A stretch of 64,000 nt of DNA from Rhizopus arrhizus. Its lineage: Eukaryota; Mucoromycota; Mucoromycetes; Mucorales; Rhizopodaceae. Both the position numbers and the translations under genes were made by a program. Positions within the stretch are counted from its first letter, which is position 1. Each line of letters starts with the position of its first letter. Where the stretch lies: assembly GCA_024220505.1 (NCBI GenBank), contig JAKZZE010000004.1, positions 1,922,001-1,986,000 on the forward strand, in the 5' to 3' direction. Shown piece by piece: positions 50,464 to 56,583 of the stretch. The notes below the pieces were generated by a model. The model was not told the DNA's origin. It searched no databases and saw only the letters and a program-made list of their open reading frames with translations.

Positions 50464-50520
50464 TATATTATTCAAAGAGCAATGTCACAAACTATTAATG
50501 TTTTAGTTGAGTTACAACTA

Positions 50521-50626
50521 CAGTGGGGCTGGTAAATTTTGTCGGTTTAAAGAAAATAAACTTCGTTTAGCAAAAAACAAATGTCGTTTCCAGAAAAATA
50601 AATGTCACTAACCTAAATGAAAATTT
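50521..50626 (+). repeat. Left inverted repeat with 21-nt subterminal repeats
   Basis: After the terminal 21 bp, four 21-nt units follow at 50542, 50563, 50584 and 50605, each starting TC and containing AAAA(T/C)AAA. The second and third units begin TCGTTT and end CAAATG or TAAATG. Probable transposase-binding sites. Confidence 0.8.
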
Positions 50627-50753
50627 CGTTTAGTACATTTATTGTTGTCGCTTTGTACTTGTTTTATTGCAATACCTGTATTAAATGACCAAGGCGATAA
50701 CCTTGGTGGTGAATTTTTTGTGATTTTCCTACTTTTGTTCTACTTAAAGATGA
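50521..50753 (-). ncRNA. Candidate Fanzor guide (omega) RNA source
   Basis: Established for TnpB/Fanzor: the guide RNA derives from the element end downstream of the nuclease ORF, with its guide reading into flanking DNA. Here 233 nt lie between the Fanzor stop (50754) and the element end. A transcript running on would take its guide from 50520 downward on minus. Position is the only evidence; no structure was computed. Confidence 0.35.
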
Positions 50754-53655
50754 TCAGTCTAAAGAATATTTTCTGGTGAAAAGGCTAGGGCGTTCGCCAG
50801 TCTTTCTCAAACTATTTAGGATCTTGAGAAAATTCAATACGGCTGCTTGATCGCGATTCCAAAGTCTTCTTTTTATTCCTGTGGTTTGTTGTTTAAGGCA
50901 TGAGAGGCTCTTACACCTAGTACTGCATTGGTTATCAAGAATTATTCTAGTTTATTTTTCCCTTTGGATTACCTCAGCAAACCATTGCATAGCACATCTG
51001 GCTTCTTTTTCTGTTGGTAAGGGCGAGGATTTGGCACGGTTTTGAATTTTTCCAAGTCATTTTCACAGGTTGGACAATGGGAAGATGTTTTGTATTCATT
51101 GATTAAGTAGACAACAAACCCATTCTTCTTTAACATCCTGATTAACCCCTTGCTTCTTGTCGGTTCTTGATACTTGACATTAGGGGCGGACCAATCTCCA
51201 AAAACTAAGACAGCATCTTGACCAAACTTTGCTTTTAAGTTACGCACCAGTTTTTGATCATTCTGGTCAAAGAAAAGTTTACTTGAAAATTTCAATTTTC
51301 GAAAAGGCAAAAGTTGTAGCTTTTCTAATGCTGTACTGATAGTCTTTTTGTAATTACTTTGCTGTGGTCGTCTACATATCTCTTTTGCCAGCTCTAGAAC
51401 TTTGCTTTTCTCACTATCATCTAGTCTTTCTGAAATATGCTTTTGTTGTAGCATTGTTTGTAGGTAGGTGGGATACAGTTGAGACTTTACAGAGCTATCA
51501 GTAGAGTAATTCTCAGGTTGAGGGAAAAAACCACGGATTCTTGCTATGAACAGATTTCCATAATACAAATTACATTTTTGATTGACTCGAAAGTCAAATT
51601 CGGATTCAGGGAAATATGTTTCTTTAGACTTTGTTGTCTCGTTTTCATAATATTCGTACAAGGTGTTTTTTACTGATGCTCTTGTTTTAATGTACTCTAC
51701 AAACTTTTTCAAGTCTACAGAGTTGGATTCAGATCTAGAAAGGATTGCTTCGGCTTTCTGGACCACAAAAGGTTGAGTACGCTTTCTTAAATATCTGAAG
51801 TGCCTTGAACATTGTGAGCGGTTGTTCTTGGTAAATATAAGTGTTCGTTTTTCTTCAACAGTGCTGGTTTCTTTCATGCTGTACATCAAGTCCCGCCTTC
51901 CAGGGTCTATCAAGACACACTTGCCTTCAGTGCTCTTTAAGTCGGTTTGACCTAATTCTTCAATATGCTCTGTTTGCTTACCGTCCACTTTCTTTTCAGT
52001 GTTGAGTTTAGGCGACTTTCTGCTTGTATCAGTGTTTTGCTTTATTATGGAGACACCGACTCCATCTGTTTCGAGAGTTCCTTGGAACCGCAAAGTCTTT
52101 TGAAATCCTTGATGCTTGAACGCCTTTTTATTTAAGTCTACGATGGCGCCCCATGTCTCAAACTTGCTTCCTGTTTTTGGATTCTTTTTGCTCTTGAGAA
52201 CATGGTGATGGATTATTTTGCTATCCAACGTCATGTAGCAAGGAATAAAGGTGGTGCGTAGCGGGAAACAAGCAAACTGTTTCATCTGTTCAGCTTCAGA
52301 CAATTCGGCAAGTCTGAAGAAGGCTTTAAAATGGTTTTTTGGACTAGCCATAATGTCATAGTAAATTGAGTTCTTTTGGAAGGTGTAGTCCTCTGGGTAG
52401 CTTGAGAGAAAGCCATTTAATTGTGTTCTTGATTGATCATCTAAAAGACCAACTTCAGGCAACTCTTTTTTTGTGATAGCAAGCTTCACCTGATTGCAAG
52501 GTCGATAAATCTTCTCTCGGATAGCTTCTTTTATCGCTTTACTACTAGACTTGTTTGCTTGCATTTCTCCTCTGAGACTCTCTGTCTTTTCCTTCTTTTT
52601 AAATAACTTGTTTATCAAACCACGCAGCCTATTTCCAAAATGAGCTTTGATGTTATTATAGTAGGCCGTTTGAATCTTCGTACACTCGTACAGGGCTATT
52701 TGCTGAGCATATGGTAAGTTGGAGGGAGTATAACCAGCATCTTCAAAGTAAGCTTCTTTATATTTTGATATTAATCGCCTATAGTTTTTGGTCGTATCCT
52801 TCAGCCTTGGGCTATTTCTACCCTTTGAGAGAACAAGACTCAGAAAAACTTCAACAAAGAAATCTTTTGTCACAAAGTTGTTCAGCGCAAAATTTTCATT
52901 TGCTGCCAGCTCTTGTAAATATATGTACTTTGTGAAGGCAAAGGTATGTGTAACTAGTAAGTTGGTAGTGTGAACCAAATCATACAATGGCTGTAAATAT
53001 GCTGGTTTCCAAATATTTTTTACAGTCGTTTTAATTGTCATCACACGCTTGCTTATCTTCTCAGGGCCTTCTTTAATGTCACTTGCCTTGTCAACAGTCA
53101 CAGGACAAAAACTTGACTTGACAGAAGTTGCAGCTGAATTGAAAACAGTTGGAACAGGTTTACTAGGCTTGAGGGAAGTTAGACTTGTTTTAGAAGCAGT
53201 CGTGCTTGACTCCACAGCAGCAGAAGTTAATTTGGTCATACGAAAAGCAGATTTGGTTGATTCACCCAAAAAGGGTCTTTTGACGACAGGTGCATCAAAA
53301 TCGTCACTGCTATATTCAAGATCATAGTCATCAAGAGTGATCTTATTGAACATGATAGTTTCATCTGTTGTAGAGATACCAGTACTACTCGTAGTAGTAA
53401 CTTCAGAAACTGTAGCTTTGCCTTTGCCTTTGAGCCTCTTTTGTAATCCACTCTGTGGAGTATTTTTCCTACCTATGATGGAGTTTCATACGTTAGACTA
53501 GCTGTTTACCTACATCAAGTTTGACAATGCAACTTACTTTTTCTTTTTCTAGCTGTTACAACGGGTTGGAAGTCGTCGTCTGAGTTGTCTTCTACATATA
53601 GTTCAAACAAGTCTATAACAGTATCAATTTTGTGGTCAGTGACATTTCGATCCAT
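50754..53655 (-). CDS. Fanzor: eukaryotic TnpB-like RNA-guided nuclease, 926 aa, apparently intact
   Basis: Fanzors are transposon-encoded, guide-RNA-directed DNA nucleases with a RuvC core. Exons 53538-53655, 50973-53472 and 50754-50916 total 2,781 nt (926 aa). The N-terminus is acidic then basic (ARKRKSRKN, an NLS candidate). RuvC-I is CVLIDPGRRDLMYSM with D at about residue 562. Later VLVFGDWSAP and GFVVYLINEYKTSSHCPTC carry E832, the shifted RuvC-II glutamate, and the first zinc pair. Exon 3 supplies the second zinc pair (RCKSLSC) and RuvC-III LWNRDQAAVLNFLKIL with D895. Without splicing at 50917-50972 the ORF stops before RuvC-III and looks truncated. No internal stops or shifts. It lies downstream of the transposase remnant, same strand. 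Confidence 0.9.
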
Positions 53656-54354
53656 TATTAGATATGGAGCCTACCGTTTTCGCTCTTAGATGGCTTCTTT
53701 TGGTTTGAAGAGAATAAAGTATCTTTTTGCTTTCCTTTCATTTTCTAATGTGTTTTCATGAGTGAAATATACGAACAAAAAGAAAAAAAAATGTCTTCCG
53801 AAATTGATTTGAATGTTAAAAGGAAATACTCCCATCCCATTTATATAGGTTTATTCAAACACAGCTACAACCGAATAATAGCAATGCGCCTACAATGAGC
53901 TTACACCATGTAGTAGCTTGTAATAGAAGATACTTGTTTTCTAGATTCACATAGAGTAGTAGGTAGGGCTCGAGAAGTTATTAGCGTCTGAATGTGTCAA
54001 GTTCTTTATGTTTTTTCATCAAATCTCAACGATAAATATGTTAAGAACATACTTGATGATCATAAAATGTTGGACCGTTATCTTGTAATGGCACTGCATA
54101 ATGATGATATATTAACTGATCAAAATATCCATTAAAAGTCCTTTGCTGAGACCAATAAAACTGTTTTAATCATATCAATTCTCGCAAGGTTTATATTCTA
54201 AAAAGATATGGTGTTTTGAAAATATCATAGTATAATTTTAAAAGCATGTTCACATGGGTGTTTTATTACAACAGTGGATGATTTGACTAGAGAAGCCATA
54301 AAGAATTTGATTATAACCATCAGGACTTCGACTCGATAAGTTTTCATTTGACGA
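53656..54354. other. Element-internal spacer between Fanzor and transposase remnant
   Basis: About 700 bp containing the presumed Fanzor promoter (minus strand). No ORF with content. No TATA box close to 53655 stands out. Confidence 0.4.
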
Positions 54355-55256
54355 TGTTTGAGTTTTCCTTTAACTATAGCCTAAAATTGCTCAATTGGGT
54401 TGGGCTCTGGCGAAAAAGAAGGTAAGTACGTTACTCTATAACCTCTACTCTCAATTTTTATTACATTGGATGAGACTTATGGATAGTACAGTAATCCATT
54501 ACAAGATAACTACCCATAAGACTTTCGTCCATGTCCATGATATCAAGAAGCTCACTTATAAATCTTACAAAGTGGGCAGTAGTTGTATTTTTTTGCTACT
54601 GGCTTGTTGTTCTCGATGGCAGTACTCTCCTCCACACCAGCGTACTCTATAGTAGACTCTTCAATAATAATGTCGCCTCCTCGTATCTCGTTTGCAAGTT
54701 ATTGTCAGAGTTTCTTATCATAGGGTCAAAGGTTGGCTTTATTGAAATGAGCATGTTATTTCTCAAGTGGTGGTTCATTTGAGACTTGAAATCTTCAAGT
54801 CCTCAAACTGCGATTTCAGAGAATCAATAATGTTATCAGAACAAAGTCGTGAGTCTTTTTCTACTATTTGTTGAATATACTGCTCATGTTCAGTAGTCAG
54901 TGAGTTAGGTCGGCCGGGATTTCTTTGCAACTTTTTGTAAACTACCTTCCCAGTTTCTTGATAGTGTTCCCACCAGCGCATAGCAGTACGAGGATTAATT
55001 CCAAGATCCTTTGCATGCAAAGTCACTTTTCCTCTTTCCGTAGGGCCCTCGATCATTCCGTCAATAAATATCTCTCTGGTTTGGTCGTTGTAGTCTTTGT
55101 AGACGCTGCTTTCTTGACCACTGTTATAGCCTTTTTTGTTGAATCTTTTGCAGTAGTTTCTTTCTCTGCTGGTTTGAGACTCAAATAGGACTTTTGGCTC
55201 ATTGTGGATTCAAGTATTACGTTTGGATAACTGATTTCGGTTAACACACCTTCCAT
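54355..55256 (-). pseudogene. DDE transposase, IS630/Tc1-mariner type, broken
   Basis: The helix-turn-helix part is clear: RGKVTLHAKDLGINPRTAMRWW, then GRPNSLTTEHEQYI. The start (55256, MEGVLTEISYPN) is in another frame, with a shift near 55070. After DLKISS at about 54780 frames break. The segment holding the first catalytic D is missing or unrecognisable. VRFISELLDIMD and YLVMDYCTIHK (second D) and SPEPNPIEQF (last acidic residue region, about 54390) survive with stops between. Therefore it cannot make active enzyme. It belongs to the same family as the fragment at 55815-56370. Confidence 0.85.
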
Positions 55257-55469
55257 CGGGTCGAAGACTCTCTCTCCATCCTTATTGTAGGCATTATTGT
55301 GTTCGTCTTCATAAAAAATGTATTTTTTGTCATGTTATTCAATTGTTAGAGCGAAGGGAAAGAAATAAAGCCTTTACATCGTAGCCGACAATAATCCCTC
55401 AGTAACGCCAATTTGACTCGGCCCAAAAAGACACAGTAAAACTTTAAGAGCGACAATTATTTGCTAGCA

Positions 55470-55580
55470 AAAGACTAAACATTTATCAGGTAGTGCCGTT
55501 TATTTTTAGGTAACCGCCATTTGTTTTTCGGAAGCTACCATTTATTTTTTCAAAATGGACAAAATTTACTAGTCGCATTG
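55470..55580 (-). repeat. Right inverted repeat with 21-nt subterminal repeats
   Basis: Read on minus from 55580: a 21-bp end, then units of 21 nt containing AAAAAATAAATG, AAAAACAAATG and AAAAATAAACG, mirroring the left end unit for unit. Confidence 0.8.
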
Positions 55581-55814
55581 TATATAATGTACAAATAGCA
55601 AATTTTTATTAGCTCAGTATTTTTGTGAGGAAAATTCATATAAAGTTGAAGTTTATTATTTTGTCAATGAACACATGTATTTACATAAAAAACATCGAAA
55701 TAACAGTATCTCTATGTTATTTGTAGATATTACAGATTGGCCATTTATAAAAAAAAGAAAAATATATATTTACTATTTTCATAAATTATTCGTACACCTT
55801 CAGAATATTACATT

Positions 55815-56370
55815 GGCTTACTGTTCAAGCAATCCTCGATCTAGCGGTTGAATATCTACAAAGTCCTTGAATATAGCTCAAAAGGATTCTATTGCATGCA
55901 TCTTCATTTCTAGACGATCATGTCCCTTCCTGCAAAAGCTCTTTTCTTTTAAGCTTATTTTTACATACTGACCAAAACTATCCAATTGGGTTGAGCTTAG
56001 GAGAGTAATCCGGAAGATAAACGCAGCCGTAGCAGCGCTTCTCAATGCATTTTCTGATATCAGTATTCTTATGAATAGGAAAATTGTCCATAACAATGCA
56101 CCTGCTCTTCAATTACTCTTGCTGATACACAATACCAGCAGCATTTGCAATGAAATTATAGTACTCAGTAACATTTTCTCTTTTGGCATTTTCAAAAGTT
56201 TGAGTACTACCTGCTGTCTTTCTCTTCTTCGAAAGAACAGGTGCTCTTGGTCTTTTTACTTTGTTTATTACACTATAAGGAGAAATAGCATTCAAATAGT
56301 TGTTGTTTTGACTCTTGTCTTGGGTACATATGCAGAAGCACATCAACCCCCTAATTTTTCTATCATTCCA
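55815..56370 (-). pseudogene. Second IS630/Tc1-type DDE transposase fragment
   Basis: Minus-strand pieces: VPKTRVKTTTI, NVTEYYNFIANAAGIVYQ, IVMDNFPIHKNTDIRKCIEK (second catalytic D), then GCVYLPDYSPKLNPIG with a stop in place of the next residue, and FWSVCKNKLKRKELLQE. The pieces lie in different frames with stops between them. Same family as the remnant inside the Fanzor element but a separate, more complete C-terminal half. Confidence 0.8.
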
Positions 56371-56583
56371 CAGAGCGCCTCATGTTCATTTAGTTTTATT
56401 CATTTATTGATACATTCATAATTATGTTTAGCCATTGGCTTTGTTTTAATATATTCCATAACAAAGAAAAAGTAATGCTATTGCAATCCTTTGAGAGAAT
56501 TGATAATCAAAATAAATTACAAGTAATATAACCTTTTTAATAAAAGAAAAATAACCAAATACTCTGAACAATGATTATCAAAA

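Follow-up and report, generated by a model that had tools for sequence, protein, structure and literature searches.

Within a 64,000-nt stretch of the genome of the fungus Rhizopus arrhizus (the window; assembly GCA_024220505.1, contig JAKZZE010000004.1, positions 1,922,001 to 1,986,000 of the forward strand), a Tc1/mariner-type transposon of 5,060 bp occupies positions 50521..55580. A transposase remnant lies upstream and a Fanzor1 gene downstream, both on the minus strand, and the limits of the element follow from its ends and from matches elsewhere in the genome. Fanzors are RNA-guided DNA cutters, relatives of the CRISPR cutting enzymes. Sister copies of the element adjoin TATA mostly on one side only, and for this reason it is proposed, with a probability of about 0.57, that a Tc1/mariner element with a broken transposase uses a Fanzor1 of the kind known from Parasitella parasitica (PpFz1) as an RNA-guided homing (or retention) nuclease. 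Held more tentatively, at a little worse than even odds, is the fuller proposition that the family spreads by Fanzor-guided homing, that its insertions survive almost only where TATA serves as target-adjacent motif (TAM), and that failed homing leaves one-sided scars.

The flanks of the family carry the argument. The four nucleotides outside the element on its transposase (5′) side are TATA in 28/32 junctions, whereas on the Fanzor (3′) side they are TATA in 11/48 (Fisher p ~1e-8), and in the window copy the predicted TAM, 5′-TATA-3′ directly adjoining the 5′ end, is at 55581..55584 on the minus strand. Taken by position, T is at −4 in all 32 of the 5′ junctions and A at −3 in 29. Where both sides of the same copy could be read (18 copies), TATA is present only 5′ in 12 and only 3′ in one (p = 0.003). 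As background, 9.5% of the TA sites in the window are TATA. The TAM reported for PpFz1 is 5′-ATN-3′ (PMC11423790). Placed so as to end at the boundary of the element, it fits the family flank at −3 to −1 (A at −3, T at −2); an ATN shifted by two would need A at −5, which is found in 6/32 junctions. With the TAM ending at the boundary, the guide would begin after the TA duplication, and the scaffold of the guide RNA would include the TA.

The 32 junctions comprise 21 scanned ends, eight ends tied to the family by nearby DNA, and copies L011, L028 and L084 (L001 being the window copy); before these three were added and L041 was corrected, the count was 24/29. For L041 the register of the empty site was used, which turns raw CATA into TATA at the 5′ end and raw TGTG into TGTA at the 3′ end. 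The letters of L019 are entered as they stand, TACA, although a later duplication suggests that they were formerly TATA. Two copies are left out of the 5′ count, L064 with no readable end and L024, which reads TATA and was outside the initial scan. At L047 (C39:1888597-1888997) a 3′ end adjoins part of a 5′ terminal repeat, 70 nt long and inverted, either a composite or a nesting with L084, and TATA is outside both outer ends of the arrangement. It had been expected to be one element inside the end of another and so to serve as an empty-site test; this was dropped when the TATA of the 5′ junction proved not to be the predicted mate, and L084 entered the count like any other 5′ junction.

Three copies (L011, L028 and L041) have junctions that resemble scars. 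Their 3′ end is in place, while the 5′ junction consists of chromosomal TATA, then the first 8–9 nt of the guide-side flank, and then an element trimmed of its first 6–23 nt. In L011 and L041 the change-over falls inside a 4-nt stretch common to both sides. About 0.008 such junctions would be expected by chance in the 13 copies without a normal 5′ end, with element-shared letters counted as matches; ten others whose 5′ end is abnormal have no scar-like junction. The simplest reading is of a break in the uninterrupted (empty) site somewhat downstream of TATA, repaired by copying from the right-hand side and by microhomology joining on the left; one-ended transposition is a possible alternative source. 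The 8–9 nt retained fall short of the published cut positions of Fanzor1 enzymes, the non-target strand being cut in vitro at 16–17 nt by SpuFz1 and at 14–17 nt by GtFz1 (PMC10432273).

The family is sizeable. At least 86 pieces of DNA in its own genome match the whole element, which is therefore no chance assembly, and for the 3′ end and for the transposase side there are at least 40 matching places each (lower bounds, 40 candidates having been scored per search). Among the 25 copies whose alignment covers 2,000 nt or more of the coding sequence, Fanzor is unbroken by stop, frameshift or damaged splice site in five (the window copy, L011, L012, L014 and L015), with exon 2 being 17 codons shorter in L011 and L015; L009 and L016 have a single lesion. 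The pooled ratio of non-synonymous to synonymous differences (pN/pS) is 0.39 in the five intact copies and 0.55 in eight dead copies, and within the intact five it is 0.35 in residues 176–926 versus 0.67 in the N-terminal tail before them. This is modest evidence of constraint, as intactness itself selects against stops.

The best-kept non-coding part of the element is its 3′ end. Pairwise divergence among the seven intact or near-intact copies is 1.0% in the last 110 nt, compared with 5.5% in the first 110 nt. Binding of transposase alone should keep both ends, and the extra constraint on one of them fits a guide-RNA scaffold. The predicted omega-RNA scaffold, which includes the 3′ terminal inverted repeat, is thus placed at 50521..50630 on the minus strand; the guide-side TA duplication at 50519..50520 would, from the register set by the TAM, supply its last two letters, and by analogy with TnpB and other Fanzors the guide segment of the window copy would be the chromosomal DNA at 50499..50518, minus strand.

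In the proposed homing, transcription of the conserved 3′ end would yield an omega-RNA, its scaffold extending through the TA duplication and its guide coming from the chromosomal sequence next to it. Fanzor would then cut, next to TATA, a version of the site that has no insertion, and repair from the element-bearing template would fill the cut site. The transposase would insert at plain TA, with insertions persisting mainly where a TAM happens to exist; since homing acts on insertions already made at TA, it is their persistence, and not entry, that would be biased to TATA. A copy whose own Fanzor is broken could still profit from the protein of another for as long as its 3′ end, the presumed source of the guide RNA, survives; the internally deleted copies in the family, which retain the 3′ end, fit such help in trans. 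The transposase would likewise be supplied from elsewhere.

Several observations weigh against homing or narrow the evidence for it. Four of the letters retained in the scars of L011 and L041 are shared with the element, leaving an unshared match of 4–5 nt plus TA. The p-values treat copies as independent, and eight of the 5′ ends counted are tied to the family by their 3′ end (two) or by transposase-side DNA (six) and not by Fanzor itself. The 5′ boundary was placed from the symmetry of the terminal inverted repeats (TIRs), from other elements with near-identical TIRs and from the three scars. Folding is a further such point. The last 45 nt plus TA fold as two small hairpins with a linker, resembling the order of SL1 and SL2 in PpFz1, but when 44 of the 48 3′ ends were aligned, covariation gave the stems no clear support (92.5% of cells paired versus 92.2% in shuffles, with one compensatory change); a pair in SL1 is disrupted in 17 copies, and RNAalifold favours other, longer upstream pairings and keeps the second hairpin only. 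With pairing no better than in shuffles, derivation of the omega-RNA structure by folding was dropped.

Also to be counted on that side is an enrichment of TATA at the 3′ junctions over the window background (p = 0.005), which implies that the transposase has some preference of its own. A transposase acting on unequal ends might then orient the element on its target and so create the one-sided TATA, Fanzor being uninvolved and the scars coming from one-ended transposition and host repair. The two ends do differ in sequence, and mirror scars, none of which was found, could be checked in just the four copies that combine a lost 3′ end with a readable 5′ flank, too few to decide against one-ended transposition. 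However, eleven other 5′-type ends, with similar TIRs and not tied to the family, have TATA in only five (p = 0.0096). These control ends may themselves belong to elements with a Fanzor; four of them (L063, L065, L067 and L078) are near transposase relatives of 57–81% identity. In addition, TATA coincides with the TAM of the nearest solved Fanzor, and we know of no oriented target preference in the Tc1/mariner superfamily. An orienting transposase is accordingly thought unlikely, though it deserves to be taken seriously.

The footprint could instead be an artefact of where the boundary is drawn. If the 5′ end began with TACAGTG, the outer TA would be the duplication and there would be no TAM footprint. 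The invariant T at −4 is what this predicts, and the exceptions at −3 (L026, L042 and L074) are one-base changes, as in a decaying TA duplication. Yet in L011 and L041, where the chromosome is joined straight to guide-side sequence, TATA is still there; the ends L070, L077, L078 and L079, with 1–3 mismatches in 24 to the 5′ TIR, are preceded by TTTA, TGTA, GTTA and CTTA; and the 3′ end is CAGTG plus TA. A misplaced boundary is on this evidence improbable. Lower still is the chance given to a decaying relic with no present role, its Fanzor frame being intact only through young insertion. Fanzor is broken in 20/25 copies, which also counts against homing, a transposase stop is common to 20/21 copies, and selection would pass via copies that have jumped and not via the window copy; the five intact copies, the lower pN/pS in the protein core than in its N-terminal tail, and the well-kept 3′ end speak against such decay. 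Homing or retention by Fanzor is the reading that is preferred in what follows.

The gene itself was first recognised in a preliminary description made from the letters of the window alone, which gave it three exons and 926 amino acids. This model stood, with both GT-AG introns exactly where they had been placed. On the minus strand, exon 1 (53538..53655) begins with the start ATG at 53655 and is followed by intron 1 (53473..53537; 65 nt, with GT-AG kept in 21/23 copies in which it is readable). Exon 2 (50973..53472) holds D562, the RuvC-insertion loop and E832 and extends to the first half of the zinc ribbon; intron 2 (50917..50972; 56 nt) keeps GT-AG in 23/24 readable copies, and exon 3 (50754..50916) contributes the second half of the ribbon, D895 of RuvC-III and the stop. 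Joined (53655-53538, 53472-50973 and 50916-50754), they read from ATG through 926 codons to a stop. The splice sites are supported by homology, since PpFz1 and the Rhizopus protein P0002 are both collinear over the last junction. Another Rhizopus protein, P0001, ends with GLLR, precisely where exon 2 does. The expectation that automatic annotation would truncate the gene is therefore right for at least this record, though not for P0002, which contains exon 3 (its own E832 and C839 are lost).

The protein is, from its sequence, confirmed as a Fanzor1 of PpFz1 type, its predicted frame being open. It has 561 identities in 847 residues aligned with deposited PpFz1 (66%), and the RuvC-I, zinc-ribbon and RuvC-III elements that had been reported all align with that protein: D562, E832, the zinc cysteines 839, 842, 874 and 879, and D895. 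The published Fanzor1 motif, D-X(125,275)-[TS][TS]-X-X-C4 zinc finger-X(5,50)-RD (PMC3627910), is present as D562, T835 S836, the four cysteines beginning with C839 two residues after T835 S836, and R894 D895. In the RuvC-insertion (FRI) loop, GFFPQPE, the prolines P690/P692 align with P613/P615 of deposited PpFz1, taken to be P614/P616 in the numbering of PMC11423790 (the paper's R448 is likewise residue 447). The only solved chains found at E up to 1 are those of PpFz1 (9cf0-9cf3; 1178 bits) and Spizellomyces SpuFz1 (172 bits, E 1.3e-49). A check with Fanzor/TnpB profiles had been suggested in the preliminary description. Sequence comparison favours the Fanzor side, but the general Pfam zinc-ribbon/TNB model PF07282, not taken as defining Fanzor1, scores 15.4 bits, below its curated cut-off of 26.3, and PF26935, which annotates most of the relatives listed, was not reported in the Pfam scan of the window. 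The five best database relatives (83–95% identity) are named Rhizopus arrhizus or R. delemar. That this copy may be active is a reasonable suggestion, as the window copy is one of five unbroken among 25 and pN/pS is 0.39 in the intact set. A separate Rhizopus arrhizus protein, P0082, is named a cellulase and has both PF02015 and the Fanzor-associated PF26935; it is probably a gene-prediction fusion across a Fanzor copy.

The carrier had been assigned to Tc1/mariner in the preliminary description; its TA duplications and inverted ends support this, as does a DDE_3 transposase domain in sister copy L012. The reported TA on both sides (50519-50520 and 55581-55582) and inverted termini, with 19 of the first 23 nt identical between the ends, were reproduced at the same coordinates. 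The 5′ TIR at 55491..55580, minus strand, was delimited by end-to-end comparison; the ends are similar across about 90 nt (74% in a 90-nt match), the inverted repeats extending inward through the arms 50519-50560/55541-55582 (79%) and 50573-50610/55491-55528 (82%). The TA duplication on the transposase side, 55581..55582, is at the same position in 31/32 family 5′ junctions, and TA is present in 46/48 of the 3′ junctions. For the window copy the search for an empty site that had been proposed met with none in its own genome, where the joined flanks match only themselves.

Less is left of the transposase. The preliminary description had a DDE remnant, which holds for sister copy L012 (DDE_3 at 43.5 bits, cut-off 28.6, plus sub-cut-off helix-turn-helix pieces); in the window only helix-turn-helix pieces are recognised, all below Pfam cut-offs, the part at 54778..55209 (minus strand) scoring 25.0 bits with HTH_29 (E 2e-5, cut-off 28.1). 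The window copy lacks some 115–145 bp of the transposase region that are present in most sister copies. At 54381..54402, minus strand, an NPIEQF motif is followed directly by TAG, as it is in 20/21 readable copies (L036 has GAG). L083, a relative of 83% identity whose open frame is long, has the TAG too. It looks as though the transposase had been truncated before the family spread. Given the deletion in the window and the shared TAG, the family probably moves with transposase supplied in trans or no longer moves; no intact helper transposase was found among the copies read, which are part of 197 transposase matches. Beside the element, open pieces on the minus strand at 55878-56379 resemble, from their translations, fragments of another transposase.

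A 5′-truncated retroposon-like repeat with the tail ATTCTTTAATCG is inserted at the outer boundary of the inverted repeats of this family. Its 3′ tail was recognised in seven loci, and in five of them (L019, L033, L036, L041 and L058) a flanking duplication with 0–2 mismatches in 11 nt starts at the very edge of the TIR, following CACTG or CACTA; in L009 the duplication follows TTG, and no such duplication was found in L012, which has three of the tails. These loci were fetched for their transposon content, and hence the count is not genome-wide. A 145-aa piece of the repeat, searched against Pfam, gave no domain. The repeat may be a target-specific element of the kind without long terminal repeats, parasitising transposon ends. 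Elsewhere, paired 5′-type inverted repeats with their outer ends outward are present at C37:1597229-1602616 (about 5.4 kb) and C8:434652-436861 (about 2.2 kb), and these probably represent sibling elements that have one kind of end at either side.

If Fanzor-guided homing is correct, the family would offer evidence, from the genome, of what a Fanzor does in nature, and DNA transposons could be seen to split entry, by transposase at any TA, from persistence, by RNA-guided conversion of empty sites. The family also makes the role of Fanzor checkable by sequencing strains that lack single insertions, and the element allows the TAM, the start of the guide and the end of the omega-RNA to be predicted in advance.

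The combination of gene and carrier is not new, as Fanzor1-bearing Mariner elements with TA duplications were described in 2013 by Bao and Jurka (PMC3627910) and the 66%-identical PpFz1 has been solved (PDB 9cf0-9cf3) and shown to cut in vitro (PMC11423790). What is new is the footprint in the flanks of sister copies, together with the scars. Like the element in the window, the Mariners of Bao and Jurka have TA duplications, inverted repeats and a Mariner transposase with Fanzor1, some having the Fanzor only; their Mariner examples are, however, algal-virus, Hydra and PUl elements, and the carriers given for Rhizopus, Phycomyces and Mucor are of MuDr type, their duplications being 9 bp long (PMC3627910). 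The Mariner passages of that paper describe neither a TAM footprint nor a homing scar, and a search of the open literature showed no report of either for a Fanzor transposon among the titles and abstract openings listed.

Likeness to PpFz1 extends to the catalytic triad, the zinc ribbon and the proline loop P690/P692, as well as to the fit of ATN with the window flank. Its proline pair contacts cyclophilin, its omega-RNA is 75 nt, and the RuvC-insertion domain is described as found only in Parasitella parasitica and Rhizopus (PMC11423790), with which the window case is consistent. The window protein differs in its length (926 versus 849 amino acids) and longer N-terminal tail, and the flanks of its family point to a longer motif, TATA. 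TnpB of IS200/IS605 and IS607 is likewise a transposon-encoded RNA-guided nuclease with a TAM at one end and a guide from the opposite flank, and the IS607 TnpB scaffold includes a fixed flanking letter (PMC10711439). TnpB differs in being bacterial and in the chemistry of its partner transposase: its carriers would home to a seamless donor joint, whereas a Tc1/mariner element would home to empty alleles.

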